A DNA stretch of 62,846 bases, taken from positions 1 through 62,846 of the forward strand of contig CANFLS010000013.1 of assembly GCA_947447955.1 (NCBI GenBank). The letters run 5' to 3'. The stretch is from Flavobacteriales bacterium (lineage in GTDB: Bacteria; Bacteroidota; Bacteroidia; NS11-12g; UBA955). Below the pieces are notes generated by a model. It worked only from the letters and a program-made list of their open reading frames with translations, searched no databases and had not been told where the DNA came from. This document shows, in pieces, positions 2,463 through 19,310 of the stretch (positions within the stretch are counted from its first letter, which is position 1; each line of letters opens with the position of its first letter). A program made the translations under genes and the position numbers.

Positions 2463-3383
2463 TTATATTTCAATAAAATAAGGGTTATCCTTTTTATTTT
2501 TTTTTAACATTATTTCAGTGTAAAGCAATTTAATAAGTCCATCTGCCAATCCAATTTTGGGAACATATATTTCAGTGGCATTGGCCCATTTCATGATGGT
2601 GGTGTAAATTTCTAATGCCGGAACTATAACCGCAGCACGGTCGTCTTTCAAATTGAATTTATGCACGCGTTCATCTATGGATAAATTTTCCATTTCAGTT
2701 AAGCTTTCCTTTAAGAAACTATATTTTAATGGTTTTCCTTCTTTAACTTTAGACATTGAAAATATTTTATTGATATTTCCACCACTTCCAATAAGTTGAA
2801 TAGGCTGATATTTTTCTACTTCATTTTTAATGAAATATTTTACACTATCCCAATGTTTTTGGGTAATTTTAAAATTCAATAAACGAATTGTGCCAATGTT
2901 AAATGACTCCTTGAAGATGATTTTTTTCTCTGCAAAGAGTGTAAGTTCGGTACTTCCTCCACCTACATCTATATAAAGCGATGCGTTGTTGTTTTGAAAT
3001 TGCTCGGCAATATGCGTTTCATATAAAATGGAGGCTTCTTCTTGTCCACTAATTACCCGAATTTTGATGCCTACTTCGTTGTCAATTTGTTCAATAATTT
3101 CAGTAGCATTTTTTGCATCCCGCATTGCGCTGGTGGCACAGGCTTTGTAAGCTTTTACATGATAAATGTCCATCAAAATCTTAAAAGCCTTCATTGTTTC
3201 AATGAAATTATGGCGTTTTTCAATTCCTATAGACCCACTTTCAAAAACATCATAACCCAATTGAATTGGAACACGAATTAAATTCAACTTTGTAAAATCT
3301 ACTTCATTGTTTCCATAAGGCTTTACCTCGGTTATGAGTAACCGAGCAGCGTTAGAACCAATATCAATAGCAGCCAATATCAA
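2463..3383 (-). CDS. ppx: Ppx/GppA exopolyphosphatase
   Basis: This 306-aa protein of the ASKHA sugar-kinase fold hydrolyses terminal phosphate from polyphosphate and/or pppGpp. The first phosphate-binding loop is AAIDIGSNAARLL (residues 3-15), the second is YIDVGGGSTEL (about 137-147), and IGSGGNINKIF lies near 200. It is the short form lacking the C-terminal HD-like domain of the 513-aa E. coli enzyme. Its start overlaps the end of the upstream polyphosphate kinase gene by 4 bp (ATGA), so the two are co-transcribed and translationally coupled and control polyphosphate turnover together. Whether polyphosphate or pppGpp is the main substrate cannot be read from the sequence. Confidence 0.88.
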   Translation of the reverse strand: MILAAIDIGSNAARLLITEVKPYGNNEVDFTKLNLIRVPIQLGYDVFESGSIGIEKRHNFIETMKAFKILMDIYHVKAYKACATSAMRDAKNATEIIEQIDNEVGIKIRVISGQEEASILYETHIAEQFQNNNASLYIDVGGGSTELTLFAEKKIIFKESFNIGTIRLLNFKITQKHWDSVKYFIKNEVEKYQPIQLIGSGGNINKIFSMSKVKEGKPLKYSFLKESLTEMENLSIDERVHKFNLKDDRAAVIVPALEIYTTIMKWANATEIYVPKIGLADGLIKLLYTEIMLKKNKKDNPYFIEI

Positions 3384-5473
3384 GAGTTGTATTTCTTGCC
3401 GCTAAGGTAATGATAAATCTCAATCTGCGACCGCATTTCAGGAGTATTTTCGTCGGAAATTACATATTTGTTTGTTTGGTCATTATCTAAAATTCTACCC
3501 TTCACATTCTCTTGCATTTGCAATTTTAAAATGGTCGTTAATTCTTCTTGTATAGAGTTGTCAAAAATTGGACAAGCCACTTCAATTCGATGATCTAAGT
3601 TTCTAACCATCCAATCAGCAGATGAAATATAAACCATGGGGGTATTGAAGTTGTTAAATATAAAAACCCTGGCATGCTCTAAATATTCGTCAATGATACT
3701 GATGGCATGAATGTCTTTTTTGAAGGATTTTTGTTCTGCTTTTAGGCAACAAATTCCGCGAATAATCATATGGATTTCTACACCTGATCTGGCAGCATGG
3801 TATAATTCATCTATGAGTTCATGATCCACCAAACTATTTAATTTTAAAAATACGCTCGCGTGTTGTTTCTTTTTGGCAAATCGAATTTCTTTTGCAAGTA
3901 AGTTCAAGAAATACTTGCGCATATGATTTGGCGCAACAATCAGTGTTTTGCAAGTTTTTAAAGAATCAAGTTTAATGATTGGCTTTTCCAAACAATCGAA
4001 TATGCGGTTGATATCTGCCAAAATCATTTTGTTCGTTGTCAATAATAAGTGATCGCCATATAGTTGGGCAGTAGATTCATTAAAATTACCTGTTGAAACA
4101 AATCCGTATTGGGTGGTTTTATTAAATTCTCGCTTTTTAATTACACAGATTTTCGCATGAACTTTCATGTCTGGAACCCCTAAAAGAACTTTAATTCCTT
4201 CTTCTTCCAAAACAGATTTCCAATATAAATTTGCCTCTTCATCAAAACGAGCTCTTAATTCTATCACCACTGTTACTTGTTTGCCGTTTCTAACCGCATT
4301 CAATAAGGCGTTGATTACCTTGGACTGCTTTGCCAAACGGTAAGCGGTAATTTTAATGCTTTGCACAGAAGGATCTATGGCCGCTTCCCTCAATAAATCA
4401 ATAATGGAGTCAAACGAATGGTAAGGGAAATGCAACATCACATCACGTTTTTCTAGAACTTCCATAATACGGCATGGTTGCTCTAACAGTGGATGCACAA
4501 AAGATTTTGGACGCTTTGTTAAATCATTGAAAACGGATTTTGGGAAATCCATGAAATCTTTGAAATTATGAATCCGTCCACCGGCAATCAGGTTGTCTTT
4601 TTTTAATAAATTCAACCGTTTTGTTAGGTAATCCAATAAATGAGGATCAATACTACGGTCATATACAAATCGCGTGGCCTTTCCTTTATTCCTGTTTTTT
4701 AAACTTTTTTCTAGGTCTCCAATGATATTATTGTGTAAATCATTGTCTAATTCCAATTCAGCATCTCTGGTGAGTTTTACAATATGGCTACTGAATCTGT
4801 TGAATCCAAAGGGTGCAAATAGGTATTTTAGATTAAAACGAATAATATCATCGAGTAAAATAATATGGGTTTCGTTTTTTGGAGAAGGAATAATTACAAA
4901 CCTAGGAACTTCTTTTTCTGGAACCTGAATGAGTGCGTAACGCTGTAGCATTGGGTTTTGGGTATTCCCAAGTACGCAAGCCAAATAAATGGATCGGTCT
5001 CTCAAAAAAGGAGCTTGTGGCATACTTTCAATCATCAAAGGAACAATTTGTGTGCGCACCTTGTCTTCGAAATAATGTTGAACAAAACTTTTCTGATCTT
5101 TAGAAAGTTGCTTTTCCGTTTTAAAGAAAACTTTATGCTGTATTTCTAGTTGCTGAATAATTTCAGCATACGTATTGTCAAAATTAATTTGCTGTTCAAG
5201 AACAACCTCTTGAATTTTCTTTAGAATTTTTTCTGGTTGATCTTCGAAATGCATTTTTGCATTTTTTTCGAGTTTGAGCATTTTATTCAATGTGCCCACG
5301 CGAACCCTGAAAAACTCATCTAAGTTGTTGGAGAAAATACCTAGAAATTTTAATCTGTTATTTAAATGGACACTCGGATCTTTCGCCTCCTGTAATACCC
5401 TTTCATTAAAAGACAACCAACTGATGTCTCTCACTATACTAAGTCTATTCGATTTCAATTTTTTTGAATGCAA
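3380..5473 (-). CDS. ppk1: Polyphosphate kinase 1
   Basis: A 697-aa cytoplasmic or membrane-associated enzyme that makes polyphosphate from ATP reversibly. The N-terminal domain carries RDISWLSFNERVLQEA, and two phospholipase-D-like C-terminal domains carry KVHAKICVI (H439, equivalent to the autophosphorylated H435 of E. coli) and LDHRIEVACPIFD (H628, equivalent to H592). The length matches the family (about 690 aa). The start is uncertain: there is no ATG near the conserved N-terminus. The first possible start is TTG at 5473; others are TTG at 5458 and GTG at 5434. A promoter-like TAGTTTTG overlaps the first TTG, which would favour a later start if it is used. First gene of a two-gene unit with ppx. 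Confidence 0.95.
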   Translation of the reverse strand: MHSKKLKSNRLSIVRDISWLSFNERVLQEAKDPSVHLNNRLKFLGIFSNNLDEFFRVRVGTLNKMLKLEKNAKMHFEDQPEKILKKIQEVVLEQQINFDNTYAEIIQQLEIQHKVFFKTEKQLSKDQKSFVQHYFEDKVRTQIVPLMIESMPQAPFLRDRSIYLACVLGNTQNPMLQRYALIQVPEKEVPRFVIIPSPKNETHIILLDDIIRFNLKYLFAPFGFNRFSSHIVKLTRDAELELDNDLHNNIIGDLEKSLKNRNKGKATRFVYDRSIDPHLLDYLTKRLNLLKKDNLIAGGRIHNFKDFMDFPKSVFNDLTKRPKSFVHPLLEQPCRIMEVLEKRDVMLHFPYHSFDSIIDLLREAAIDPSVQSIKITAYRLAKQSKVINALLNAVRNGKQVTVVIELRARFDEEANLYWKSVLEEEGIKVLLGVPDMKVHAKICVIKKREFNKTTQYGFVSTGNFNESTAQLYGDHLLLTTNKMILADINRIFDCLEKPIIKLDSLKTCKTLIVAPNHMRKYFLNLLAKEIRFAKKKQHASVFLKLNSLVDHELIDELYHAARSGVEIHMIIRGICCLKAEQKSFKKDIHAISIIDEYLEHARVFIFNNFNTPMVYISSADWMVRNLDHRIEVACPIFDNSIQEELTTILKLQMQENVKGRILDNDQTNKYVISDENTPEMRSQIEIYHYLSGKKYNS

Positions 5474-5584: not shown

Positions 5585-6556
5585 ATGTTTCAGCGTTTCA
5601 ATTTTTTCGTTTTTACCTCGTTTTTTGTTGCCAGTAATTTACTTGCCCAAAATTCAATTCCAAAGGTACTATATGGATCGATAAAACGCATTGAAAATAT
5701 TGGGGGATTTGTAGACGGTAGGTATGTTGACATCTGGCTGCCGCCGAATTACCGTCCCTCAAAAAAATACCCTGTTCTCTATATGCATGACGGACAAATG
5801 CTTTTCGATTCTGCAATTACATGGAATAAACAGGAATGGAATGTTGATGTTGTTTTGGGTAAATTGATTTTGAACAAAGAAATTAAACCGCTAATTGTGG
5901 TGGGTATTTGGAATAATGGAAGCAAACGACGTGCAGAATATTTACCAGAAGATCCAATTGAGATATTATCAGATGGTGAACGTCAATTTTTGCTTGGAAA
6001 AGATCGACAAGGAATTTTGCCTTTGTTTGAGCATCCTGTGCAATCTAATAATTATCTGAGATTTATTGTAGAAAACTTAAAACCTAAAATTGATTCAATG
6101 TTTCTTACCCATAAAAGCGAAAATTATATTGGCGGTTCAAGTATGGGTGGATTAATTTCATTGTATGCTATTTGTAAGTATCCCGAAGTTTTTAAGGGTG
6201 CAGTTTGTATGTCGACCCATTGGCCAGGTCTCTTTATTAGGCCAGATTCAATAAATCCTTTTTACCGCGATTTTCAAAAATACTTGGATTTGAATCTGCC
6301 TGATCCAAAAACGCATAAGATTTACTTTGATCATGGAAACAAAACACTTGATTCTATTTATGGCCCTGCTCAAAATTCAGTAAATCAAATCATGGCTGAT
6401 CTTGGTTATGCAGTTGAAAATAAAATTGATTTAAAGAAATTAAAATTCATAAAGGGTACTTCTTGTGTGAGTTTGTTTTTTGAGGGAAAAGATCATTCCG
6501 AATTGTCTTGGAGCGACAGGTTGAATATTCCCATGAAATTTATGTTTGGTCAATAA
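5585..6556 (+). CDS. Secreted alpha/beta-hydrolase, esterase D type
   Basis: A 323-aa protein of the putative esterase family (PF00756). I chose the ATG at 5585, where the signal peptide begins (MFQRFNFFVF..., cleavage after LLAQ); a TTG three codons upstream lies inside the promoter element. Visible features are an oxyanion segment PVLYMHDGQMLF, the nucleophile elbow GSSMG (S186) and a C-terminal GKDHSELSW with the likely catalytic His. Relatives act on carbohydrate esters, enterobactin or S-formylglutathione; the exported location favours a carbohydrate or siderophore ester. It stands alone, divergent from ppk1, with no terminator seen after it. Confidence 0.8.
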   Translation: MFQRFNFFVFTSFFVASNLLAQNSIPKVLYGSIKRIENIGGFVDGRYVDIWLPPNYRPSKKYPVLYMHDGQMLFDSAITWNKQEWNVDVVLGKLILNKEIKPLIVVGIWNNGSKRRAEYLPEDPIEILSDGERQFLLGKDRQGILPLFEHPVQSNNYLRFIVENLKPKIDSMFLTHKSENYIGGSSMGGLISLYAICKYPEVFKGAVCMSTHWPGLFIRPDSINPFYRDFQKYLDLNLPDPKTHKIYFDHGNKTLDSIYGPAQNSVNQIMADLGYAVENKIDLKKLKFIKGTSCVSLFFEGKDHSELSWSDRLNIPMKFMFGQ

Positions 6557-6634
6557 AAACGATATAACCGTCTAAAAATGAGGTCAAATCCGTGATACTT
6601 ATTTGGGAAATGTAGGCACCTCAATAAAAATCAG

Positions 6635-6642
6635 TAAATTTG
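6635..6642 (+). promoter_or_regulatory. -7 element TAAATTTG of the small exported protein gene
   Basis: Exact TAnnTTTG match, 14 nt before the ATG at 6657. It supports 6657 as the start rather than the TTG at 6603. Confidence 0.55.
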
Positions 6643-6656
6643 CATTTATTAAAACT

Positions 6657-6980
6657 ATGAAAGGCGTGTTGAAATATTCTAAAATGTTGGGTCTATCCCT
6701 CATTTTATTGCTATTCACGGCATCTTTTGTTGAATGGACAATCCATTCTGAGTTTAATGGTAATAATACTCAATGTGAAGAAACTGTTGACTCGGATTCA
6801 GACGACAATGACGACAAAGTAGTATTCCTTTCATTTTTTGACGAAAATCTTACATATTCTAATATTCAAATACCCCAAGCGTTCTTTTCTTGGGTTTATA
6901 CATTTGAAAAAACAATAAAAGTCAATGTGCACAAAGTGTCATTGGTTATTTTGTTGCAGCAGATTAAAATTGCTGGGTAA
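6657..6980 (+). CDS. Small acidic exported protein of unknown function
   Basis: A 107-aa product not recognised as any family. It has a basic N-terminus (MKGVLKYSK), a hydrophobic segment at about residues 11-24 (signal peptide or anchor), then an acidic stretch (EETVDSDSDDNDDK), and ends with another hydrophobic segment (VSLVILLQQI). An upstream in-frame TTG at 6603 would add 18 residues without a sensible signal peptide, so ATG 6657 is preferred. It lies 151 bp before the SulP gene on the same strand, but nothing links it to carbon uptake beyond position. Confidence 0.5.
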   Translation: MKGVLKYSKMLGLSLILLLFTASFVEWTIHSEFNGNNTQCEETVDSDSDDNDDKVVFLSFFDENLTYSNIQIPQAFFSWVYTFEKTIKVNVHKVSLVILLQQIKIAG

Positions 6981-7131
6981 TTTTTTATTTCATAACTACT
7001 GCACGAGTTCTATCGTGTGATTTTGCTTTATTGAGAAGCAATCCCAAAATGCAATGCCTTTTTTGGCAAAGGAAATAATGAAAAAACCTATCAACTTGGT
7101 TCAAAGTTGAAACAAACAAAAACAAAAAATT
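6981..7131 (+). promoter_or_regulatory. Leader of the carbon-uptake operon with a palindrome
   Basis: This non-coding stretch holds an imperfect 20-bp palindrome at 7091-7110 (TCAACTT, 6-nt spacer, AAGTTGA), which ends 21 bp before the SulP start and could be an operator or a small hairpin. A second short inverted repeat (CACGA/TCGTG) lies at 7002-7017. No exact TAnnTTTG element was found here. Confidence 0.3.
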
Positions 7132-8757
7132 ATGACAAAAAATAAAACAAATACTATCCCATCTGATGGATGGAAAGGTTTAGTAGAAAACTGGAAGTCG
7201 GATTTGCCTTCTGGATTTATTGTTGCTTTATTGGCTCTGCCATTAAGTTTAGGAATTGCATCGGCATCAGATTTTCCCAATCCTTTGTTTGGTGTATTAA
7301 CTGCCATTATTGGTGGTATCATCGTGAGTTTCTTTATGGGAGCTCGCTTAACCATCAAAGGACCTGCTGCAGGATTAATTGTAATTGTGGCTGGAGCAAT
7401 GAGCGTGTTGGGTTGGGAAACCACCTTGGCTGCGATTGTTGTAGCGGCAATTTTGCAAATTGGTTTCGGTTTAATGAAATTAGGTAAATTGAGTGATTTT
7501 TTCCCGCTGTCGGCAGTGCATGGTATGCTTGCTGCAATTGGTGTAATTATTATGTCGAAGCAACTTCATGTATTGATGGGTATTAATCCTGTTTTTGGAG
7601 ATGGCGCTATGCATCATGGGGAATCGGTTGCCGGTAAACCAATGGTTGCTCCGTTGGATTTAATTGGAGCATTGCCTCATACTTTTTCTAAGTTAATGGC
7701 AAGTCCAGTTTCACAAGGTTCATTTATTGTTGGATTAATATGTTTGGTAATCGTTTTTGCCTGGCCATTAATTAAATTTTCATTTTTGAAAAAAATACCA
7801 GCACCAATGGTTGTTTTATTGGTAGCGATTCCGTTAGCTATGAAATTTGGTTTAACCCAAGAAAATAAGCAATTGGTAAAAGTGGGTGATTTTTGGAGTA
7901 TTTTAAAAGTACATGCAGATTTCTCTCATATTGGAGATCATATGGGTTCTTTCATTCAGTACGTTGCATTGTTTGCGATCATTGGAAGTTTAGAGTCATT
8001 ATTAACAGCTAAGGCAATTGATTTATTAGATCCATTCAAAAGAAAAACCAATTTCAACAAAGATTTGATTGCAGTTGGAACAGGTAATGCAATAGCTGGT
8101 TTATTTGGTGGTTTACCAATGATTTCGGAGGTTGCGCGTAGTTCTTCAAATGTGAATAACGGCGCAAAAACGCGTTGGGCCAACTTCTTTCACGGAATTG
8201 TGTTGTTCTTGTTTGTTGCTTTTATGTCTGGTATCATTGAAATGATTCCAAAATCAGCATTGGCAGCTTTGTTAATTGGGGTAGGATTTAAATTGGCTCA
8301 CCCACGTGAATTTATTCATATGTTCAAAATTGGGAAAGAACAACTTCTTGTTTTCTTGGTAACTATTGCATTTACATTAATTGAAGATTTATTGGTTGGG
8401 ATTGCAGCTGGTATTGTAACAGAATTAATAGTGCTTTATGTAAATGGAACACCCATTAGTTCCCTATTTAAATCTCAATGTCAAGTAAATTTTGTTGGAG
8501 ACAAATACGAAGTTCATGTAGATAAGGCAGCTGTGTTCTCTAATTTTATTGGTATCAAAAATAAATTAGAATCAATTCCTGCAAACTCAAATATTACTAT
8601 CATTTTCGAAAATGCAAGGGTAATTGACCATTCTGCAATGGAACAATTGCATTTGTTTCATGAAAATTATGAAAGAGAAGGTGGTGTTGTTATTGTTGAA
8701 GGTTTAAATAATCACAAAGCCTTTTCTACCCATCATTTGGCGGGAAGGAAATTGTAA
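7132..8757 (+). CDS. SulP-family anion transporter, probable bicarbonate transporter
   Basis: This 541-aa inner-membrane protein has about 10-12 hydrophobic segments and the SulP signature near the N-terminus (GFIVALLALPLSLGIAS, then GARLTIKGPAAGL). It ends in a cytoplasmic STAS domain (about residues 440-541, ARVIDHSAMEQL). SulP proteins move sulfate, bicarbonate or other anions, usually with sodium or protons. It is the first gene of an operon with dabA and dabB (12 bp to dabA). That makes bicarbonate the most likely substrate, as in cyanobacterial BicA, but sulfate cannot be excluded from sequence alone. Confidence 0.88.
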   Translation: MTKNKTNTIPSDGWKGLVENWKSDLPSGFIVALLALPLSLGIASASDFPNPLFGVLTAIIGGIIVSFFMGARLTIKGPAAGLIVIVAGAMSVLGWETTLAAIVVAAILQIGFGLMKLGKLSDFFPLSAVHGMLAAIGVIIMSKQLHVLMGINPVFGDGAMHHGESVAGKPMVAPLDLIGALPHTFSKLMASPVSQGSFIVGLICLVIVFAWPLIKFSFLKKIPAPMVVLLVAIPLAMKFGLTQENKQLVKVGDFWSILKVHADFSHIGDHMGSFIQYVALFAIIGSLESLLTAKAIDLLDPFKRKTNFNKDLIAVGTGNAIAGLFGGLPMISEVARSSSNVNNGAKTRWANFFHGIVLFLFVAFMSGIIEMIPKSALAALLIGVGFKLAHPREFIHMFKIGKEQLLVFLVTIAFTLIEDLLVGIAAGIVTELIVLYVNGTPISSLFKSQCQVNFVGDKYEVHVDKAAVFSNFIGIKNKLESIPANSNITIIFENARVIDHSAMEQLHLFHENYEREGGVVIVEGLNNHKAFSTHHLAGRKL

Positions 8758-8769
8758 AATCGTTGAATT

Positions 8770-11259
8770 ATGGAAAAAATACATTCAAAATTCAATGAAG
8801 AACATGTTCTTCATGAATTGAGCCATTATTTGCCTGCTCAAGCGCCTTTGAAGGATTTTATCCATCACAATACCTTACATGCTTTTCAGCACGATGAATT
8901 TTTTAAGGGAATTGAAAAAGCAAATGCAATCTTTGGCTATAACGTTACTTTGGGCATTGACGAATACAGAGAGTTGTATGCCGAGGGAAAAATTTCTGAC
9001 GCTTCCATTACGCATATCCTAAAAACTGAAAATAAAGAAGATACTCAACTTTGGAAAGAGAAAATGCTTCATGAGCAATTTCAAAATCATTCACAAACGA
9101 GGGTAGGGAGTTTGAGGAAATTATGGAAAACCAAAAATGGATTGGATATGGACGCACTTTCTCATCCAATTTTATTCCGGGTTATTTGTAGTTATTTAGA
9201 CCAAGGTATTTCTATTTGGAGGTTTCCTGAAATTTCAGGTGGATTCTTAAAAAATCTAAAAGCCCTTGAATCTTCCGGCTATGTAAGTTTATTTCAAGGC
9301 AAAACTGCGAGAAAATATTTGCTGACTGAGCAATGGGATATTGAGTTTTTATTGCAAAAGGTGATTGGAAATGAGGAATTGTTTGAGAGATATTTAATTG
9401 ATCAGCAATTTGCTCATCCGGGTTGGTCGGGTATGGTTTCAACAGTTGAAGCCATGCCGGAAACACTGCTCGATACAAGAAGAATTGCATTAAAAGAATT
9501 GATTGCTTTCGAATTGTTAATTGAAATTGATGTTCTAGAATCTAAAATGGGTGAGGACTTTCTACCCATGTGTCAATTGTTGCCTATTGAAAATGTAGAC
9601 TTATTTGCGCCAATTGCCTATTCTGAGCATTTTGAAGTAATTCGTCTGTGGCAAATTAGTTATGAATGGAATTATTACGATTCAGTGCTAAATGGGTTAA
9701 AACAAAATTTCAATAATAAATTTGAAAATACTACCAGTCAAAGTTTCCAAGCTCTCTTTTGTATTGACGACAGGGAATGTAGTATTCGCCGCCATTTGGA
9801 AACAGAAGATCCAAATTGCAAAACATTTGGTACTCCAGGGTTTTTTGGGGTAGAATTTTATTATCAACCAGAAAATGGGAAGTTTTATACCAAGCATTGT
9901 CCAGCACCAGTTACTCCTAAGTTTTTAATAAAGGAAACCGATGCTACTCAAATACACAAGCGCGATTTGCATTTTCATCACCAAACACATTCATTGTTAT
10001 TCGGGTGGTTGATTTCTCAGTCGCTAGGTTTTTGGTCGGCCATGAAATTATTCGTGAGTATTTTCAGGCCTACAATGAGTCCAGCTACGGCATCATCTTT
10101 AAAGCATATGGATGAGTTTTCTGCTTTATCAATCGAATTTAAGGGTGAAACAGAAAATGGATTGCAAGTGGGGTACAAAGTAGAAGAAATGGCCGATAGG
10201 ATTGAAACGTTATTGCGCAGTATTGGTTTGGTTGAGAATTTTGCTCCGATTATTTATTTGATAGGACATGGTTCTAGCAGTGTAAATAATCCGCATTACG
10301 CGGCTTATGATTGTGGTGCTTGTTCTGGTCGTCCAGGCTCAGTAAATGCAAGGGTAATGTCGTTTATAGGGAATCACCCTAGTGTGAGAGAAATTTTGGC
10401 AGAACGTGGAATTAATATCCCTCAAAAAACACAATTTGTTGGAGGATTGCAAGATACCACCCGCGATGAAATTGTTTTCTACGATGAAGATGCTTTGTCA
10501 GTTGAAAACAAGAAAATGCATTCTGAAAACAAACAATCATTCATAGCTGCGTCTGACATGAATGCGCTTGAACGCTCGCGTAGATTTGAATTGGTTGATA
10601 CTTTGAATACCCCTGAAAAAGTGCATGAAAAAGTAAAATTACGTTCGGTTTCTCTTTTTGAACCACGTCCGGAATTGAATCATGCAACCAATACTTTATG
10701 CATTGTGGGTGGAAGGGAATTAACAAAGAATGTGTTTTTAGACCGCAGGGCTTTCATGAATTCTTACAGTTATAAAGTTGATCCCGATGGGAAATATTTG
10801 TTTGGGATTTTAAAGGCATGTGCCCCCGTTTGTGGTGGAATTAACCTTGAATATTATTTTTCGAGGGTGGATAACCAAAACCTCGGTGCTGGTTCTAAAT
10901 TGCCTCACAATGTAATGGGCTTATTTGGCGTTGCAAATGGAATAGATGGCGATTTGCGCCCTGGGCTTCCTAGTCAAATGATTGAAGTTCATGATCCAAT
11001 TAGATTGTTAATCATAGTTGAGCATTTTCCAAAAGTAGTGCTTGAAACCATTCAAAAAGATGCAAATACATATGAGTGGTTTAAAAACAATTGGGTTCAT
11101 TTGGTTGTGCTCAATCCTGAAACAAAAACCTATTTTAAATTTCAAAATGAAGTATTTGAGGCTTACGAGCCAGTTAGTTCAACCGTAGAAATTGCGAAAG
11201 ATTTGTTAGCGAATTTTCGTAATAACCACGATAATTTACCTGTTTATTTAATGAATTAA
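8770..11259 (+). CDS. dabA: DabA, inorganic carbon transporter subunit (DUF2309)
   Basis: This 829-aa protein of the DUF2309/UPF0753 family is the carbonic-anhydrase-like subunit of the DAB membrane pump that turns CO2 into bicarbonate inside the cell. The four zinc-site and catalytic residues known from Halothiobacillus DabA are present: C331 and D333 in FCIDDRECS, H500 in LIGHGSSS, and C515 in YDCGACSGRPG. The 15-residue H-to-C spacing equals that of the characterised protein (H524 to C539). The N-terminus has the usual LSHYLPAQAPLKDFIHHN. It is followed after 2 bp by dabB, so the complex partner is co-encoded. The length matches the family (about 800 aa). Confidence 0.93.
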   Translation: MEKIHSKFNEEHVLHELSHYLPAQAPLKDFIHHNTLHAFQHDEFFKGIEKANAIFGYNVTLGIDEYRELYAEGKISDASITHILKTENKEDTQLWKEKMLHEQFQNHSQTRVGSLRKLWKTKNGLDMDALSHPILFRVICSYLDQGISIWRFPEISGGFLKNLKALESSGYVSLFQGKTARKYLLTEQWDIEFLLQKVIGNEELFERYLIDQQFAHPGWSGMVSTVEAMPETLLDTRRIALKELIAFELLIEIDVLESKMGEDFLPMCQLLPIENVDLFAPIAYSEHFEVIRLWQISYEWNYYDSVLNGLKQNFNNKFENTTSQSFQALFCIDDRECSIRRHLETEDPNCKTFGTPGFFGVEFYYQPENGKFYTKHCPAPVTPKFLIKETDATQIHKRDLHFHHQTHSLLFGWLISQSLGFWSAMKLFVSIFRPTMSPATASSLKHMDEFSALSIEFKGETENGLQVGYKVEEMADRIETLLRSIGLVENFAPIIYLIGHGSSSVNNPHYAAYDCGACSGRPGSVNARVMSFIGNHPSVREILAERGINIPQKTQFVGGLQDTTRDEIVFYDEDALSVENKKMHSENKQSFIAASDMNALERSRRFELVDTLNTPEKVHEKVKLRSVSLFEPRPELNHATNTLCIVGGRELTKNVFLDRRAFMNSYSYKVDPDGKYLFGILKACAPVCGGINLEYYFSRVDNQNLGAGSKLPHNVMGLFGVANGIDGDLRPGLPSQMIEVHDPIRLLIIVEHFPKVVLETIQKDANTYEWFKNNWVHLVVLNPETKTYFKFQNEVFEAYEPVSSTVEIAKDLLANFRNNHDNLPVYLMN

Positions 11260-11261
11260 TT

Positions 11262-13127
11262 ATGGAATTGCTACTTCAATTATTCGTTTTACTGCCTTTG
11301 CTAGGGTATGTAATAAGTTTGTTTATTCCAGAAAAAAAGGAAAGAACATTATCTGCCGTTGCCTATTCAACAGTCGGGATCTATTTATTGGCGTTAATTG
11401 CCTTTACAATTAACTGGTTAATTGGGCCCCATAAAGCTTTGAATTTAAAAGATGTGATTATTTATCATTCTGATGAATATGAATTTTATATAGATTTCTA
11501 TTTTGACAGAATTACAGCAATTTTTGCTTTTGTTGGCGGATTTTTAACCTTTTTAATTACAATTTATAGTCGGGTTTATCTGCATAGAGAAAATGGCTAC
11601 AAAAGATTCTTTAATACCATTTTGTTTTTCTTTTTGGGATATAACATTACCGTGTTTTCAGGGAATTTCGAAACATTATTTATGGGTTGGGAAGTTTTGG
11701 GTATTTCTTCTTTCTTGTTAATTGCATTTTACAGAGAGCGATATTTACCCGTAAAAAATGCACTTAAAGTTTTCTTTATATATCGAATTGGCGACATTGG
11801 TTTGATTTTGGCTATGTGGTTGAGTCACCATTTGTGGCACGAGAATATCACATTTGCAAAGTTGAGCAACTATGAAATCATACATGAACATTTGCAAAAT
11901 CATAGTTTTGAGGGAACAATTGTTGCGTTAATGGTTCTGATTGCGGCTTATGCCAAAAGCGCGCAATTGCCTTTCAGTTCTTGGTTACCAAGGGCCATGG
12001 AAGGGCCAACTCCATCAAGTGCCATTTTTTATGGTTCATTGTCTGTTCATCTTGGTGCATTTTTGATGTTAAGAACTTATCCGTTTATTGAAAATCAATA
12101 TATTGTAAGGGGAATCATGATTGCAATGGGTTTGTTTACCAGTTTCGTTGCAATGAATATAGCTCGGGTACAATCGTCGGTGAAAAGCCAAATTGCTTAT
12201 TCTTCTATTTCTCAAATTGGATTGATATTTATTGAAATTGCATTAGGTTTTGAAACTTTGGCATTGATTCACTTTGCGGGAAATGCCTTTTTAAGAACCT
12301 ATCAGTTATTGGTTTCTCCTTCAGTTGCCAGTTATTTAATTAGAGAACAATTCTTTAATTTCAATCCTGCTCACAGAGGTGCAAATAAATTTATTCCTAA
12401 AAAATTAATGAACTCTGTGTATTTGCTAAGTTTAAAGGAATGGAATTTGGACCAATTTAATTATGCATGGCTTTGGCATCCGCTAAAAAAGGGAGGGAGA
12501 ATATTCAAATTTGTAAGAGAAAGGCATATTTGGATGATTTTCTTGCCAGTTTTTATTTTGGGTGTTATTGCTTCCGTTAATAAAGAATTGTTGTCTATTG
12601 ATTTGGTTCGGGTTTTGGAAATCGTTTTCGCACTTATTGGACTAATTATGGTTTTAAGGGCGTTTGCAGAATACAAAAATGTGGTAATGAGTTGGTGGTT
12701 AATTGCACTCAATCATTGTTGGATTGCCTTGGCTGTTTCTTTTAATGAGAATTTTAGTATTACAGAAACCTTTCTATATTTGAGCGGCGCCTTGGTAGCG
12801 GCAATATTCGGCACCATTATTTTGAAAAAAATTCGAAATAAAGAAGGTAGATTAGACATTAGTGAATTCAATGGATTTGCGGTGCCTTACAAGACTTTGG
12901 CATTCTTGTTTTTGCTTTGTGGATTAGGAATAACAGGATTTCCAATTACGCCTACTTTCATTGGTGAAGATTTGATTTTTAGTCATATACATGAAAATCA
13001 GTTCTTCTTGGCTGCAATTATTTCCATTAGCCTTATCATTGATGGGTTGGCCATGGTAAGAATTTATGCCCGTTTATTTTTAGGTCCATACAGTGGATCT
13101 TCAGTTTCAGTTCAACATTCATCTTAA
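11262..13127 (+). CDS. dabB: DabB, NuoL/MrpA-like proton-conducting subunit
   Basis: A 621-aa polytopic membrane protein of the proton-conducting NuoL/NuoM/MrpA superfamily. Visible are the GWEVLGISSFLLIAFY segment, the FIYRIGDIGLILAMWL helix, the AYAKSAQLPFSSWLPRAMEGPTPSSA loop typical of this fold (in full here, its first 18 residues only as a guide) and QIAYSSISQIGLIFIEIALG. No other complex I genes lie nearby, so it is not nuoL. Placed directly after dabA, it is DabB, which anchors DabA and couples its activity to ion flow. The segment after residue 370 is longer than in short DabB proteins. The order dabA-dabB, with a SulP gene first, is noteworthy. Confidence 0.9.
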   Translation: MELLLQLFVLLPLLGYVISLFIPEKKERTLSAVAYSTVGIYLLALIAFTINWLIGPHKALNLKDVIIYHSDEYEFYIDFYFDRITAIFAFVGGFLTFLITIYSRVYLHRENGYKRFFNTILFFFLGYNITVFSGNFETLFMGWEVLGISSFLLIAFYRERYLPVKNALKVFFIYRIGDIGLILAMWLSHHLWHENITFAKLSNYEIIHEHLQNHSFEGTIVALMVLIAAYAKSAQLPFSSWLPRAMEGPTPSSAIFYGSLSVHLGAFLMLRTYPFIENQYIVRGIMIAMGLFTSFVAMNIARVQSSVKSQIAYSSISQIGLIFIEIALGFETLALIHFAGNAFLRTYQLLVSPSVASYLIREQFFNFNPAHRGANKFIPKKLMNSVYLLSLKEWNLDQFNYAWLWHPLKKGGRIFKFVRERHIWMIFLPVFILGVIASVNKELLSIDLVRVLEIVFALIGLIMVLRAFAEYKNVVMSWWLIALNHCWIALAVSFNENFSITETFLYLSGALVAAIFGTIILKKIRNKEGRLDISEFNGFAVPYKTLAFLFLLCGLGITGFPITPTFIGEDLIFSHIHENQFFLAAIISISLIIDGLAMVRIYARLFLGPYSGSSVSVQHSS

Positions 13128-13133
13128 ATAAGC

Positions 13134-14498
13134 ATGAGAAAAATATTTAGTTTAATTGCAATACAATTGCTCATATTGGGCGCTTTTGCCCAAGTAAAAA
13201 AAGAAAGTACAGATTTAAAATATTCATTGAATGAATCTGGTACGCATTATTTTCAAGTAACATTTTTAAACCAATTATGGGTTAGGCAAAATCAAAATTT
13301 GACTGGAACCACCGTTGAAAATGAAGCCCAATCTTCTACATTTGATATTGGTTTACGAAGAACCAGAATGCAAATGTTTGGTCAATTGAACGACCGTGTC
13401 TTTGTTTATTTCCAATTTGGTCAAAATAATTTCAATTCGCAGTATGCCATTGGCGCCAATAGAAAAGTTGCTGCGTTTTTGCATGATGCAGTTTGTGAAT
13501 ACAGGGTTACGAGCGGCTTAGGTTTGAAAATTGGTGGTGGATTAACCATAGCAAACGGGCTTTCTAGGTTTTCGCAACCTTCTATTGGTAGCATCATGAC
13601 AATGGATGTCCCAGTTTTTGCTCAGGCTACAGTTGATCAAACAGATTTGTTTAGCAGAAAATTAAGTGTTTACGCACGCGGTCAAGTGGGTAAGATAGAT
13701 TATCGCTTTTCTTTAAGTGATCCTTTTCCTGTAACAAGCAATGGAAATACCCTACCAGAAATTTCTGCCAATGCAACCTTTGCCAAAATCGGACATCATT
13801 TACAACAACAAGGGTATTTGATGTATCAGTTTTTTGACCATGAAAATCATACTACTCCATATATGACTGGAACTTATTTGGGAAACAAAAAGATTTTCAA
13901 TATTGGTGTTGGTAGTATTTTTCAAAAGAATGCAACTTGGAGAACAGAAAATATTGGCAATAAAAAAGATACAGTCATGAACAATATGAAATTGTTGTGT
14001 GTTGAATCGTTTTTAGATATGCCTGTGAACAAAGAAAAAGGAACAGCAATCAATGCTTATGTGGGTGTTTTTAAAACTGATTATGGCAAGAATTATTTGC
14101 GCTTTAATGGAATCATGAATCCAGCTTCTGGAACCACAACTGCTAATTTGGTAAAAGATGCAGGTTCTATGTATGGAAATGCCATACCTATGTTTGGAAC
14201 TGGTAACGTGATTTATTCTCAGTTGGGATATTTGTGCTCAAAAGATTTATTGAAGGAAAACGGTCAATTAATGCCGTATCTTTCTATGACATCCGCACAA
14301 TATGACAGACTGGGTAAAGACAGATTGAATACTTTCAATGTAGGTATCAACTGGTTTATTCAAGGACACAAAGCAAAAATTACATTGGATTGGCAGAATA
14401 GACCTGGTGTATTATTGCAAACTGTGAGTGGTCAAGATGCAGTAATTAAAGACGGACGTAAAAATGCAATAACATTGCAATATCAAGTATTCTTTTAA
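13134..14498 (+). CDS. OprO/OprP-like outer-membrane porin
   Basis: A 454-aa outer-membrane beta-barrel. It has a signal peptide (MRKIFSLIAIQLLILGAFAQ), then the motif RRTRMQMFGQLNDRVFVY typical of phosphate-selective porin O/P relatives, and ends in an aromatic residue (YQVFF) as expected for barrel assembly. It starts 6 bp after dabB and is the last gene before a terminator, so it belongs to the carbon-uptake operon. I infer that it lets bicarbonate or another anion pass the outer membrane; the actual selectivity is unknown. Confidence 0.8.
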   Translation: MRKIFSLIAIQLLILGAFAQVKKESTDLKYSLNESGTHYFQVTFLNQLWVRQNQNLTGTTVENEAQSSTFDIGLRRTRMQMFGQLNDRVFVYFQFGQNNFNSQYAIGANRKVAAFLHDAVCEYRVTSGLGLKIGGGLTIANGLSRFSQPSIGSIMTMDVPVFAQATVDQTDLFSRKLSVYARGQVGKIDYRFSLSDPFPVTSNGNTLPEISANATFAKIGHHLQQQGYLMYQFFDHENHTTPYMTGTYLGNKKIFNIGVGSIFQKNATWRTENIGNKKDTVMNNMKLLCVESFLDMPVNKEKGTAINAYVGVFKTDYGKNYLRFNGIMNPASGTTTANLVKDAGSMYGNAIPMFGTGNVIYSQLGYLCSKDLLKENGQLMPYLSMTSAQYDRLGKDRLNTFNVGINWFIQGHKAKITLDWQNRPGVLLQTVSGQDAVIKDGRKNAITLQYQVFF

Positions 14499-14564: not shown

Positions 14565-14593
14565 AAGGCAGATCTGAGGGTCTGCCTTTTTTA
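14565..14593 (+). terminator. Terminator of the SulP-dabAB-porin operon
   Basis: Stem AAGGCAGA/TCTGCCTT with an 8-nt loop, followed by a T-run, 66 bp after the porin stop codon. It separates the carbon-uptake operon from the SusC operon. Confidence 0.8.
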
Positions 14594-14780: not shown

Positions 14781-17700
14781 ATGGAAAAAAAAGTACCACA
14801 TAAATCGTCATTTTTTAGATGGTTTAAATCAAATCACTTGAGAGTTTCTTTGTTGCTTCTTTTTGCTATTTTTAGTATTTCGGTTAGTTTTGGTCAAAAT
14901 ATGCCCCAGGTATATTCTTTAAAAGTAACTGGTCAAAACAACCAATCAATAAACGCTGCGAAAATTACATATTCTGAAAATACATCGGCAGGAAACATAA
15001 AAAAGGAAGTAGTTACAAACGATAAAGGAGAATTGGAATTGGTTACCACTCCTGGCATAACCATTGAAATTAGTGCATCCGAATATGAATCTCAAAGTAT
15101 TGTACTTTCTGATAATTTGAAATTGGATATTCAATTAGAACCTAAAGTTGAAAATGTTGGAGAAGTGGTTGTTGTAGGTTATGCCACTTCAAAAAGAAGA
15201 GAATTAACAGGGTCAATTGGGTCTGTTAGTGGTGCCACACTTACAAAGCAACCTGTTTTAACAGCTTCCCAGGCTTTACAAGGAAAACTTGCAGGTGTGC
15301 AAATTACAAGTTCAGGTGCTCCAGGTTCTGCGCCAACTGTAAGAATTCGTGGAACGGGTTCGGTAATTGGTGGTGCTGAGCCATTGTATGTGGTTGATGG
15401 AGTAATAACTGAGGATATTAGAAATATTAATAATGCAGATATCCTTTCTGTAGATGTTTTGAAGGATGCATCTTCTACTGCAATTTATGGTGTTCGTGCA
15501 TCAAATGGGGTTATTTTGATTACTACCAAAGCAGGAACAAGAGGAAAAGCATCAGTAACCTATGATGGCTATTATGGCATCAAAAGTATTTCGAACAAGG
15601 TAGATATGGCAGGGCCAAATATGTTTGCAACTTATTCAAATGAAGCTGCAGGTACATTCGCCATTATTGCTTCTGACATTTCAAAAAAACCAACCACCGA
15701 TTGGTTTGATGCAATTACCCGAACAGGTATGCAACAAAATCATTCTATTTCAGTTTCTGGTGGTGGTGATTTGGCAACTTCTTTACTTTCTGTTAACTAC
15801 ATGAAAGAACAGGGTATTTTGAGTGGCAACGATTATGAAAGATTGTCAATCAGAAATAACAATACATTCAACATCAATAAGTCCCTGAAAATCGGAAACA
15901 ATGTTGGTTTGAGTAAATACCATTCAAATAACAAACCATTTAGCTTGTTTACCCAAGCATACAATGCCGCTCCAATTTATACAGCTAAAGATGAAAATGG
16001 GGTTTATGGTTATACCACCAAAAGTGATGTAGGTAATCCATTGGCTGCTTTGGATTATACCAACGACCAATCTTATGGTTACCGTTTGATGGGGAATATT
16101 TATGCCGATTTGGATTTGGGTAAAGGATTTTCATTTCGATCTAGTTTTGGTACAGATATGTACGAAAACAATGGTGAAAGCTATCAAACAAAGTATAAAG
16201 TTTCTCCAACTCAAAAATACGATACCACCACATTAACCTTGAGCACTTCAAGAGGATATCGTTGGATTTGGGATAATATTTTAACGTATACCAAACAATT
16301 AAAAGATCAGAATTTAAAGGTGATGTTTGGGCACACAGCTGAGCAATACGATGGAGAGCAGATGGCAATTTCGAGAGACGGTGTTCCACCACAATCGCAA
16401 TACAGATATTTAAATACCGGAAGTTCAACTGTTCAAGCCAATTTGTTGTACCAAAGTCCGATTGGTGATTACGGACGTCGTGAAAGTTATTTGACTAGGG
16501 TGAATTATGGTTTTAAAGACAAGTTATTTGTAACAGCAAGTTTCAGAAGAGACGGTTCTTCAAAATTTCCAATTCAAAATCGTTGGGGTAATTTTCCATC
16601 AGTGGGTGTGGGTTATGAAATTTCAAAAGAGTCTTTCTTCCATATTCCTAAAATGAATTATTTGAAGATCAGATCTTCATGGGGTAAGGTAGGTAATGAT
16701 AGAATTTATCCCTCAGAATTTGTAACCTTGTTGTCATCTGGATTGACTGCCGTTTTTGGCAATCAGGTAAAAAATGGGACCACCATAGCAGAAGTAAAAG
16801 ATCCAAACTTGAAATGGGAAACCACCACAGAATACGATTTGGGTTTTGATTATGAATTTTTTGGGGGACGTTTGAAAGGTACAGTTGATTATTATTACAA
16901 ATACACCGCTGGCGCTTTGTTTAATATTCCTTTGTCGGCCGGGTTAGGCGACAACAACAATGCAATGCTTACCAATGCGGCAGATATCAGTAATACGGGT
17001 CTTGAATTTACAATTGGTTACAACAACGATGCGCGCAAACACAAAGTTGCTTATTCTGTAAGTTTGAATGCAACATTTAATAAAAACCGTGTTGAGAATT
17101 TAGGATTAGGTCAACCAACAAATTTTGGTAATTTAAATAACGGAGAATTCGCTACGAGGGTTGCTGCGGGTCAACCCATTGGGTCATTCTGGGTTTACCA
17201 AACTGATGGTGTTTATCAAAATCAAGCTGAAATTAATAAAACCCCTCATTTGTTCGGTGTTCAACCAGGTGATTTCAAATTTGTTGATGTAAATGGAGAT
17301 GGCGTTATAAACGACAAAGACCGTCAATATGTAGGTTCTTATCAGCCAATTTGCTACTTGGGTATTAATAACCAAATATCATATAAAAGCTGGGATTTGA
17401 GTTTTGATATCTTTTCAAACATCGGAAATAAAGTATTTAACGGAAAGAAAACAGTTCGATATGGTGGTAACTACAACGTAGAATACGATGTGGCTTTAAA
17501 CCGTTGGACACCTAATAATCCTACAAATGATTACCCTAGGGCGTTTAATGGGGTGCCAAAACCATCTACTTACTTTGTAGAGTCAGGTAGTTTTGCCCGT
17601 TTGAATAATTTTACAATTGGTTATAAATTGCCAAATACTTGGGCAAGAAAAAGTCACGTGAAATCGTATCGTTTTTATATAACTGCGCAAAACTTGGTTA

Positions 17701-17822
17701 CTTGGAAAGCGTATTCTGGGTTTACTGCTGAATTACCTGGAGCTCCACCAGAAGCGGGTATTGAGTTAAATGTTTATCCAACCTCTCACACAATTTTAAC
17801 AGGAGTTAATATCCAATTTTAA
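14781..17822 (+). CDS. SusC/RagA-type TonB-linked outer-membrane transporter
   Basis: This 1013-aa outer-membrane protein imports oligosaccharides with TonB energy. It has a signal peptide (about 1-38, ends SVSFGQ), a degenerate carboxypeptidase-regulatory-like domain (about 40-125), a TonB-box-like VGEVVVVGYAT, a plug domain (LTGSIGSVSG, LQGKLAGVQI, RIRGTGSV, LYVVDGV, ILSVDVLKDASSTAIYG) and a C-terminal barrel ending GVNIQF. There is no N-terminal STN signalling domain, so it does not itself drive an anti-sigma/sigma switch. It pairs with the SusD gene 9 bp downstream and heads the polysaccharide locus. Confidence 0.95.
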   Translation: MEKKVPHKSSFFRWFKSNHLRVSLLLLFAIFSISVSFGQNMPQVYSLKVTGQNNQSINAAKITYSENTSAGNIKKEVVTNDKGELELVTTPGITIEISASEYESQSIVLSDNLKLDIQLEPKVENVGEVVVVGYATSKRRELTGSIGSVSGATLTKQPVLTASQALQGKLAGVQITSSGAPGSAPTVRIRGTGSVIGGAEPLYVVDGVITEDIRNINNADILSVDVLKDASSTAIYGVRASNGVILITTKAGTRGKASVTYDGYYGIKSISNKVDMAGPNMFATYSNEAAGTFAIIASDISKKPTTDWFDAITRTGMQQNHSISVSGGGDLATSLLSVNYMKEQGILSGNDYERLSIRNNNTFNINKSLKIGNNVGLSKYHSNNKPFSLFTQAYNAAPIYTAKDENGVYGYTTKSDVGNPLAALDYTNDQSYGYRLMGNIYADLDLGKGFSFRSSFGTDMYENNGESYQTKYKVSPTQKYDTTTLTLSTSRGYRWIWDNILTYTKQLKDQNLKVMFGHTAEQYDGEQMAISRDGVPPQSQYRYLNTGSSTVQANLLYQSPIGDYGRRESYLTRVNYGFKDKLFVTASFRRDGSSKFPIQNRWGNFPSVGVGYEISKESFFHIPKMNYLKIRSSWGKVGNDRIYPSEFVTLLSSGLTAVFGNQVKNGTTIAEVKDPNLKWETTTEYDLGFDYEFFGGRLKGTVDYYYKYTAGALFNIPLSAGLGDNNNAMLTNAADISNTGLEFTIGYNNDARKHKVAYSVSLNATFNKNRVENLGLGQPTNFGNLNNGEFATRVAAGQPIGSFWVYQTDGVYQNQAEINKTPHLFGVQPGDFKFVDVNGDGVINDKDRQYVGSYQPICYLGINNQISYKSWDLSFDIFSNIGNKVFNGKKTVRYGGNYNVEYDVALNRWTPNNPTNDYPRAFNGVPKPSTYFVESGSFARLNNFTIGYKLPNTWARKSHVKSYRFYITAQNLVTWKAYSGFTAELPGAPPEAGIELNVYPTSHTILTGVNIQF

Positions 17823-17831
17823 TATATAGCC

Positions 17832-19310
17832 ATGAAAAACAATATGAAAAAATTCAAAACTGCGTTTACCATCATTGGCTTGGCTACAATTTTGGTTACT
17901 GTTCCTTCTTGTAAAAAATCTTTTTTAGAAGAACCTCCAAGAGCGCAAACTCCTGATGATTACTTTTCGAGCACGAAACAAGCTGCCGAAGAATTGGTGA
18001 CATCGGTTTATAATAAATTATACGATTGGTCACAGCATTCATTTTCTTGGATTGGCATAACTAGTATTGCCAGCGATGATGCCGACAAAGGAAGCGATCC
18101 TGGAGATACCGGCGCCGACAAAGATCAATTAGATAATTTATCTCATACCTCTACTTCGCTGTCTTTTGGTGAAGTTTGGGAATCAAATTACGAGGGAATT
18201 TCAAGGGCAAACAAAGCTATTTATTTAATGGATAAGCTGAATATGGATCCTTTGCAACGTCAAATATTTAAAGGTGAAGTTCAGTTTTTAAGGGCATACT
18301 ATTACTTTAACTTGGTTAGATGTTTTGGTGGAGTACCTAAAATTGACAAAGTTCCAATTACCCAAGCTGAAATAGATGCGGTTAATGTAAAATCTACTCC
18401 TGATGAAATTTATGACTTGATTGAGTCAGACTTGACATATGCCGGAACAGTTTTGCCATCAACGCGTTTGATTGATCAAGGAAGGGCAACTTCATATGCG
18501 GCCATTGGTTTGTTGGCTAAGGTGAATTTATATAGAGAAAAATGGGCCCAAGCAGCAGCAAATGCAGAAGTGTTGATTGGTTCTAAAAACTTTGATTTGC
18601 TTTCTGATTATTCTCATATTTGGAGGGAAATTGGTGAGTTTTCTTCAGAATCCATTTTTGAAGTGAATGCAAAAGGCACCGAACCCGCTAAAGGAATTGT
18701 AGGATATTTTGTTGTTCAAGCTCCAAGGGGGCAAGGTGGTTTGGGTTGGGGATTCAATACCCCATCTCTAGATCTTTACAATGCCTACGAAGCTGGAGAT
18801 GTAAGAAGAGATGCAACAATTATCAAATCGGGTCAAATTTTGTGGGATGGATGGCAAACAAGTACTTTGGCGCCAAATGCGAGATATAACTACAAAAGCT
18901 ATGTAAGTAAATTGGTTGAATCTTGGGGCAAGCAAGACAATGAAACTAATAAAAATTTGCGTATATTGCGTTATGGCGATTTGTTGCTAGTTGCAGCTGA
19001 AGCGTACAATGAACTTGGTGATACTTCTAAGGCATTGAAATATATGAATATGGTAAGAAATCGTGCTGGTTTGGCAAATGCATCTGCCACAACCAAAACT
19101 GATATTCGCATTGCAATATGGAAAGAGCGTAGGGTAGAAATGGCAATGGAACATGACCGTGTTTTTGATCTGAGAAGAACCAAACAAGCAGGAACTGTAA
19201 TGAGAGCACATGGCAAAGCATATGTGGATGGAAAACACGATTTATATCCAATTCCACAACGTCAAATTGACTTGGCAAATGGCAAACTCATACAAAATCC
19301 TGGATATTAA
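17832..19310 (+). CDS. SusD/RagB-type surface glycan-binding lipoprotein
   Basis: This 492-aa lipoprotein has its lipobox at VPSC (about residue 27) and forms the lid of the SusC transporter, holding the oligosaccharide. Typical SusD segments are present: FLEEPPRAQTPDDYF after the Cys, RANKAIYLMDKL, AEVQFLRAYYYFNLVR-like text (here GEVQFLRAYYYFNLVR), and near the end NKNLRILRYGDLLLVAAEAY and KERRVEMAMEHDRVFDLRR. It lies 9 bp after SusC, so the two are co-expressed. Confidence 0.95.
   Translation: MKNNMKKFKTAFTIIGLATILVTVPSCKKSFLEEPPRAQTPDDYFSSTKQAAEELVTSVYNKLYDWSQHSFSWIGITSIASDDADKGSDPGDTGADKDQLDNLSHTSTSLSFGEVWESNYEGISRANKAIYLMDKLNMDPLQRQIFKGEVQFLRAYYYFNLVRCFGGVPKIDKVPITQAEIDAVNVKSTPDEIYDLIESDLTYAGTVLPSTRLIDQGRATSYAAIGLLAKVNLYREKWAQAAANAEVLIGSKNFDLLSDYSHIWREIGEFSSESIFEVNAKGTEPAKGIVGYFVVQAPRGQGGLGWGFNTPSLDLYNAYEAGDVRRDATIIKSGQILWDGWQTSTLAPNARYNYKSYVSKLVESWGKQDNETNKNLRILRYGDLLLVAAEAYNELGDTSKALKYMNMVRNRAGLANASATTKTDIRIAIWKERRVEMAMEHDRVFDLRRTKQAGTVMRAHGKAYVDGKHDLYPIPQRQIDLANGKLIQNPGY

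Follow-up and report, generated by a model that had tools for sequence, protein, structure and literature searches.

The window analysed here, a stretch of 62,846 nucleotides from a Flavobacteriales bacterium (assembly GCA_947447955.1, contig CANFLS010000013.1, positions 1 to 62,846), carries four closely spaced genes on the forward strand that encode a SulP anion transporter, the DabA and DabB subunits of a predicted CO2-hydrating complex and an outer-membrane porin, preceded by a small open reading frame (ORF) referred to here as the leader (Table 1). The intergenic gaps measure 12 bp (sulP/dabA), 2 bp (dabA/dabB) and 6 bp (dabB/porin). The ORF coordinates, the Pfam matches of sulP, dabA and dabB, and a hairpin followed by five T residues bear out the terminator-closed four-gene operon with 2-12 bp gaps that an earlier, sequence-only reading had described. 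The leader ORF, which that reading overlooked, forms part of the operon head, and its stop codon ends 151 bp upstream of sulP. Positions 6657-14498 are interpreted, with a probability of roughly 0.6, as an operon that supplies inorganic carbon to a heterotrophic bacterium of the Bacteroidota, headed by an export-coupled leader. The gene set, its recurrence in spite of rearranged order, the SulP clade and the placement and conserved C-terminus of the leader are shown by the data; bicarbonate transport by SulP, the part played by the porin and ribosome stalling are proposed on that basis.

Table 1. Features of the operon and its immediate flanks in the window
Feature	Position	Strand	Evidence and remarks
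Candidate -7 promoter element TAAATTTG	6635-6642	+	fits TANNTTTG; unchanged in same-genus locus L162
Leader ORF, 107 codons + stop	6657-6980	+	hydrophobic start, acidic middle, C-terminus ...VSLVILLQQIKIAG
Hairpin overlapping last leader codons	6957-6975	+	identical in L162, its T-run not
Hairpin between leader and sulP	7000-7019	+	pairs kept in L162 through one-sided changes (by eye)
sulP, anion transporter of dab-linked SulP clade	7132-8757	+	PF00916 7.7e-57; clade support 97/90
dabA, predicted CO2-hydrating subunit	8770-11259	+	PF10070 1.9e-213; Zn-site residues aligned to 9rd0
dabB, predicted proton-conducting NuoL-like subunit	11262-13127	+	PF00361 7.9e-41, PF00662 1e-9
Outer-membrane porin, OprP/OprO-like barrel	13134-14498	+	ExtI profile 1.9e-14 (below cut-off); model pLDDT 80.7; OprP TM 0.53
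Terminator-like hairpin, 10 pairs, then TTTTT	14565-14588	+	

Residues C331, D333, R335, H500 and C515 of the window's DabA do not vary in an alignment of ten sequences (that of the window and those of nine relatives) and align with the Zn ligands and the Asp-Arg dyad of DabA2 in structure 9rd0, which confirms the retention of C331, D333, H500 and C515 first noticed in the sequence. In 9rd0, the Zn site consists of Cys351, His524 and Cys539 and the dyad of Asp353 and Arg355, as given in the excerpted text of PMC13144422. A PF10070 protein with Cys/His/Cys ligands and the Asp-Arg dyad is adjoined by a PF00361 protein, so that both the gene pair and the Cys/Asp/Arg/His/Cys site are shared with the DAB2/DAC systems (DabA2-DabB2 of Halothiobacillus neapolitanus and MpsAB of Staphylococcus); because residues and partner are the same as in DAB2, DabAB is taken to be a vectorial carbonic anhydrase (CA) driven by the proton motive force. 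Unlike these systems, the window has dabA before dabB, its operon also contains genes for SulP and an outer-membrane barrel, and no Rubisco match was found in the 11 genomes that carry this DabA.

A profile search detected PF10070 in 30 of 392 Bacteroidota genomes. The window's dabA subfamily (52-60% identity, dabA ahead of dabB) accounts for 11 of the 392, and the remaining PF10070 genomes hold a second subfamily at ~26-34% identity, in which dabB comes first wherever dabB was seen; genome G076 carries both. Around the distant subfamily, SulP, the window-type porin, a DUF2490 barrel and a CA query were found in none of 18 stretches (16-19 kb, from 18 genomes), and two further stretches (L041 and L042) contain neither SulP nor porin. 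Separately, a contig of Azotobacter chroococcum (L119) has Bacteroidota-type dabA (56%), dabB (56%) and SulP (50%) genes in a row, with no match to leader or porin, which looks like horizontal transfer, and a contig labelled Planctomycetota (L099) carries both dabA subfamilies in a divergent arrangement.

The recurrence of the gene set was assessed in loci gathered by a genome scan for dabA, which yielded at least 576 loci; the 80 best were kept, so that the sample represents the closest kin. Together with ten further loci and the window, these make 91 loci, which form 86 groups at 97% DabA identity; leaving out 27 groups with less than 5 kb of flank gives 59 dereplicated loci, the window included. 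SulP lies within 5 kb of dabA in 46 of these 59 (one of them, L037, with a broken SulP that adjoins a CA gene), compared with a chance expectation of ~0.007 SulP per locus derived from SulP density. The window-type porin is present in 20 loci and a DUF2490 barrel, within 6.5 kb and with its identity assigned from one member (PF10677), in 13. SulP is accompanied by one of the two barrels in 33 of the 59 loci and stands without a barrel in 13, and no locus has a barrel without SulP. Both SulP and the porin are present, for instance, at locus L063 of Arcicella rosea. Among the orders are dabA-dabB-sulP-porin (10 loci), dabA-dabB-sulP-DUF2490 (8), porin-sulP divergent from dabA-dabB (4) and sulP-porin-dabA-dabB (3), and the exact order sulP-dabA-dabB-porin occurs in the window only (1/59). 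Free variation of the neighbours, which the sequence-only reading had named as refuting its view, was found for the order but not for the set: SulP and a barrel hold as recurrent partners of dabAB in this subfamily, in contrast to the other one, and the particular arrangement does not. The gene set is not accidental, and many relatives keep it with its order shuffled.

Within the window's own family, a PF10070 match is present in 26 of 70 genomes, below cut-off in one of them, and 20 stretches were obtained from 18 of the 25 non-window genomes (two from G414 are possibly one locus). SulP is present in 17 of these 20, although that of L160 is only 31% identical, and 15 of the 20 also contain the porin or DUF2490; in each of the three loci lacking SulP (L157, L164 and L166), the sequence is truncated on one side by the end of its contig. 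Only one of 13 genomes of the window's genus has DabA, at locus L162. Compared with the window, L162 is 86% identical in the esterase, 89% in the leader and 95% in DabA, but only 53% in the SulP that lies between them, most simply because sulP alone was exchanged in place.

A same-strand ORF of 85-160 aa lies directly upstream of DabA or SulP in 58 of the 91 loci (70 ORFs, a few evidently unrelated), and 62 leaders, including that of the window, were chosen without dereplication. They have a median length of 119 aa, an N-terminal hydrophobic stretch in 54 of 62 (20% in shuffles), an acidic middle (D+E 18.5% vs K+R 7.3%) and an end that approximates P-[LI]-[YF]-[LI]-x-x-R-x-[LIF]-R-I-stop, with some running two or three residues longer. 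Conservation is mainly C-terminal, in the last 11 residues. Since all four Pro codons occur at the conserved Pro and all six Arg codons at position -5, it is the peptide that is conserved, and not only the RNA. Comparison with L162 points the same way to constraint on the ORF (dN 0.04, dS 0.18, dN/dS ~0.2), with the last ~49 nt identical. A longer, TTG-started form of the leader gave no Pfam match at 1e-3.

When 16,991 ORFs were scored, the 60 best ends all lay 52-534 bp upstream of DabA or SulP, most of them belonging to the training leaders. In a held-out test that excluded loci with related DabA, C-terminal profile scores above 5 bits were reached upstream of 65 of 112 head genes, compared with 11 of 744 controls, the training leaders having been selected with the same motif that the profile scores; the window's own leader reached 5.3 bits, and some of the 11 positive controls resemble leaders of other operons (c62, c12 and c41). 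Six divergent loci carry a leader on both arms by the held-out score (L053, L060, L069, L106, L111 and L036/L054), whereas L035 and L058/L067 have one on a single arm and L084 and L109 on neither. Among the family loci, a leader-like ORF judged by eye precedes the first gene in 14 of 15, five of them porin-first; three of these ORFs (L155, L157 and L158) have no in-frame ATG, and in that of L161 the ATG is located just 9 codons before the end.

The RNA around the 62 leader stops folds better than its shuffles, with a mean z of -2.34, compared with -0.05 at dabA stops, -0.84 at dabB, -1.26 at SulP and -0.79 at other genes. In the window, a 206-nt segment covering the leader end and the gap has a z of -1.83, with 8 of 200 shuffles folding equally well, and hairpins occur both at the leader end and in the gap. 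An RNA family search of positions 6500-7300 returned no match at E <= 1. Upstream of the leader, no -33 element was found at the usual spacing from the -7 match, whose pattern TANNTTTG we take to be the Bacteroidota -7 promoter consensus.

Two known kinds of upstream ORF resemble the leader. According to the available excerpts, CutF is a nascent exported copper sensor whose action depends on its C-terminus and on a stem-loop in the mRNA (PMC9973294), and upstream ORFs confined to Bacteroidota, with conserved ends adjacent to the stop, precede Sec genes (PMC10987492). In common with both, the leader is a small, apparently exported upstream ORF with a conserved C-terminus and hairpins before the next gene. 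Of the features that the excerpt of PMC10987492 gives for arrest peptides, a small upstream ORF with no annotated function, an N-terminal export signal (judged from hydrophobicity only), a spacer of more than 30 residues and a conserved C-terminus were found. The leader differs in that it stands before sulP, dabA or the porin, that is, before carbon genes instead of a sec or yidC gene, and in its acidic middle; PP within the last 15 residues occurs in 6 of 62 leaders and CxxC/CxxxC in 1 of 62, neither being present in the window's. A CutF-type metal sensor was rejected on this Cys count, His motifs lying outside the test. Small ORFs before CA-linked SulPs (L063:17580-17948, L080:3-290, L106:1947-2270, also L062, L064 and L071) end PPPPKV-like, nearer to the CutF type than the dab-linked leaders do, and in L038, L115 and L120 a small ORF upstream of a gene of ~750 aa (cluster c62) has a PPLYKLYCQLVFYA-like end close to that of the carbon leaders.

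The small leader gene ahead of the operon probably controls it. The nascent C-terminus of the exported leader, together with the hairpins at and after its stop, would set expression through export-coupled ribosome pausing, and the emerging acidic leader could respond to periplasmic pH, bicarbonate, a cation or the proton motive force. The fuller proposal, that a Bacteroidota leader-peptide family controls carbon uptake by sensing the periplasm, with the PLYxxxRxLRI-like end pausing the ribosome near the stop and the hairpins switching the DabAB-SulP-barrel module, is put forward tentatively, at somewhat less than even confidence. An alternative, which is considered unlikely, is that the small ORF is the gene of a third complex subunit instead of a cis-acting leader. 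The N-terminal hydrophobic stretch and the purifying selection on the ORF would suit such a subunit, and a small membrane protein is the third component of DAB1 in Halothiobacillus (excerpt of PMC13144422). A subunit is harder to reconcile with one leader per arm in six divergent loci, with leaders that precede SulP or porin as well as DabA, with conservation concentrated at the C-terminus, and with the retention of the leader where sulP was exchanged.

The window's SulP passes the model of its family (PF00916, 193 bits against a cut-off of 23.2). Its best full-length NCBIfam matches, DauA (161 bits) and sulP (160 bits), are both far below cut-off. A tree built from the first 520 residues of 75 SulPs, none shorter than 440 aa and all drawn from dab neighbourhoods and L145 and not from SulPs at large, places the 63 dab-linked SulPs, together with one that lies further off, in one clade with support 97/90, apart from 11 CA-linked SulPs, among which the second SulP of the window's genome falls. 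At 670 bits or more, a cut chosen after the gap down to 552 bits (the score of the G045 SulP) had been seen, the dab-linked SulP profile finds 11 of 392 genomes, 9 of which also carry this DabA, itself present in 11 (Fisher 5e-15); this test is partly circular, because the profile includes rows from four of the nine shared genomes. SulP bicarbonate transporters such as BicA, and sulP-can pairs, are already known (excerpts of PMC12628692, PMC6458275 and PMC10880623), and the excerpts of PMC6458275 and PMC12628692 describe, as here, a PF00916 SulP beside an enzyme that converts CO2 and bicarbonate; in the window, by contrast, the partner is DabAB and not a CA, the clade differs from that of the CA-linked SulPs sampled, and the BicA model NF050096 is not reached (90.5 of 880 bits). 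Some dab-linked SulPs of ~730 aa (such as L053:6697-8892) have an extra C-terminal domain of some 200 residues. A CA fusion was considered for these and rejected, as the part beyond the STAS-like stretch gave no Pfam match at E <= 1 in the one scanned.

The porin was predicted as a barrel, and among 50 structures listed its highest model-normalised TM scores are to OprP (0.53) and OprO (0.52), at ~10% identity; many porins score alike, and PorB ranks first by E-value. Membership in the OprO/OprP phosphate-porin sequence family was not found, given no Pfam match at 1e-3 and no match of a 28-row profile to PDB sequences at E <= 1, and the score against the ExtI model NF040900 (53 bits) lies below its cut-off of 150. 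In these loci the porin goes with SulP, even in G101, which has no DabA (L168), and the porin family is not confined to carbon. The occurrence of barrels of two different families beside SulP argues for an outer-membrane step.

Among the 11 carriers of this DabA, the window's genome included, Rubisco was found in none, in line with its reported absence from the window. PEP (phosphoenolpyruvate) carboxylase occurs in 7 of the 11 but was not found in the window's genome, and the PYC_OADA domain of pyruvate carboxylase was found in none of the 11. Anaplerotic carboxylation, named by the sequence-only reading as the carbon sink, is consequently not supported, although absences from this genome are provisional because it is 94% complete. 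General bicarbonate-using enzymes such as acetyl-CoA carboxylase are likely consumers. A search limited to the beta class found a beta-CA in 8 of the 11 carriers, the window's genome included, where its gene overlaps the second SulP, and none in G146, G076 and G275.

In the proposed supply route, the porin, or the DUF2490 barrel in relatives, would pass the anion through the outer membrane, SulP would carry either bicarbonate or a comparable anion through the inner membrane into the cytoplasm, and DabA-DabB, judging from homology to DAB2 and the retained active-site residues, would use the proton motive force to hydrate cytoplasmic CO2 and trap it as bicarbonate, which may feed general carboxylases rather than Rubisco. 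Several observations weigh against this interpretation. Neither SulP nor barrel accompanies dabA in 13 of the 59 loci; G101 and G344 hold a SulP of the dab-linked type without DabA, SulP and dabA lie ~100 kb apart in G190, and the linked SulP of G212 is broken and does not reach the clade's score. The window's SulP scores far below the BicA cut-off. The idea that CO2 is hydrated by DabAB alone is weakened because the window's genome has a beta-CA. Close porin kin (at least 600 bits) occur in 8 of 392 genomes, four with this DabA and four without (G253, G328, G355 and G166), with no SulP nearby in the latter, so that an exclusive porin-DabA link was rejected and a carbon-specific porin is less credible. 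For the leader, 47 of 112 head genes lack one by profile score (Runella loci, the four barrel-first heads and the CA-linked SulPs among them), leader stops fold no better than porin stops (z -1.96, p 0.36), and terminators follow 16 of 62 leaders, compared with 25% of dabB, 34% of porin and 18% of other genes. They are no commoner than behind dabB, and intrinsic-terminator attenuation is not supported as a general mechanism.

Two further alternatives concern the transporter. In the first, which is rather improbable, the module serves pH balance, with DabAB making bicarbonate that SulP exchanges or exports. The direction of SulP transport is not readable from sequence, Glu288 of the window's SulP aligns with what we take to be the Na+-site Asp of BicA, and another CA is present in the genome. 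The barrel that accompanies SulP in 33 of 46 loci, by contrast, suits entry from outside, and in the three carriers without a detected beta-CA DabAB would be needed for supply. The second, that SulP is a conventional permease for sulfate or dicarboxylates and is co-transcribed with dabAB by chance, is about as improbable: the PF00916 family is mixed in function, the best match DauA is a C4-dicarboxylate transporter and sulP alone was exchanged in L162, but SulP is linked to dab, forms one clade and co-occurs with DabA, and PF01507 (PAPS reductase/CysD), present in 14 of 14 control genomes, was not found in 5 of 11 carriers (G000, G146, G045, G023 and G275, the window's genome being among the five). 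The latter result argues against assimilatory sulfate uptake, which was rejected as the reason for SulP; PF01507 is weak in G283 and G212, and the dab-linked SulP is the only SulP of G146, G023 and G275.

Some neighbouring genes are recorded separately. A complex-I-like cluster (PF00361 twice, PF00146, PF00346/PF00329 and PF01058, identified by Pfam in L043:7304-14658) lies beside dabA or SulP in L043 and also in L046, L089, L099 and L168; in G101 (L168), SulP and porin stand behind apparently the same genes, judged by eye, with no DabA. In the window, an exopolyphosphatase gene next to a probable polyphosphate kinase gene (by eye; 2463-5473, reverse strand) lies upstream of the operon, and a SusC/SusD pair (14781-19310, forward strand) lies behind its terminator.

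DabAB is already known (excerpt of PMC13144422). A literature search with most subscription journals and preprints outside its coverage returned no recognised description of the SulP-DabAB-barrel set and no recognised report of a leader before carbon-uptake genes, and the excerpts of PMC8567241, PMC5219744 and PMC4148732 contain nothing on the grouping. If the operon is read in this way, a two-membrane route dedicated to inorganic carbon, of the kind usually discussed for autotrophs, may also exist in heterotrophic Bacteroidota, and it would include a SulP clade with a substrate that can be guessed and tested. If the leader acts as proposed, carbon supply would be read by nascent-chain control, which the excerpted literature otherwise describes for metals, tryptophan and protein export.

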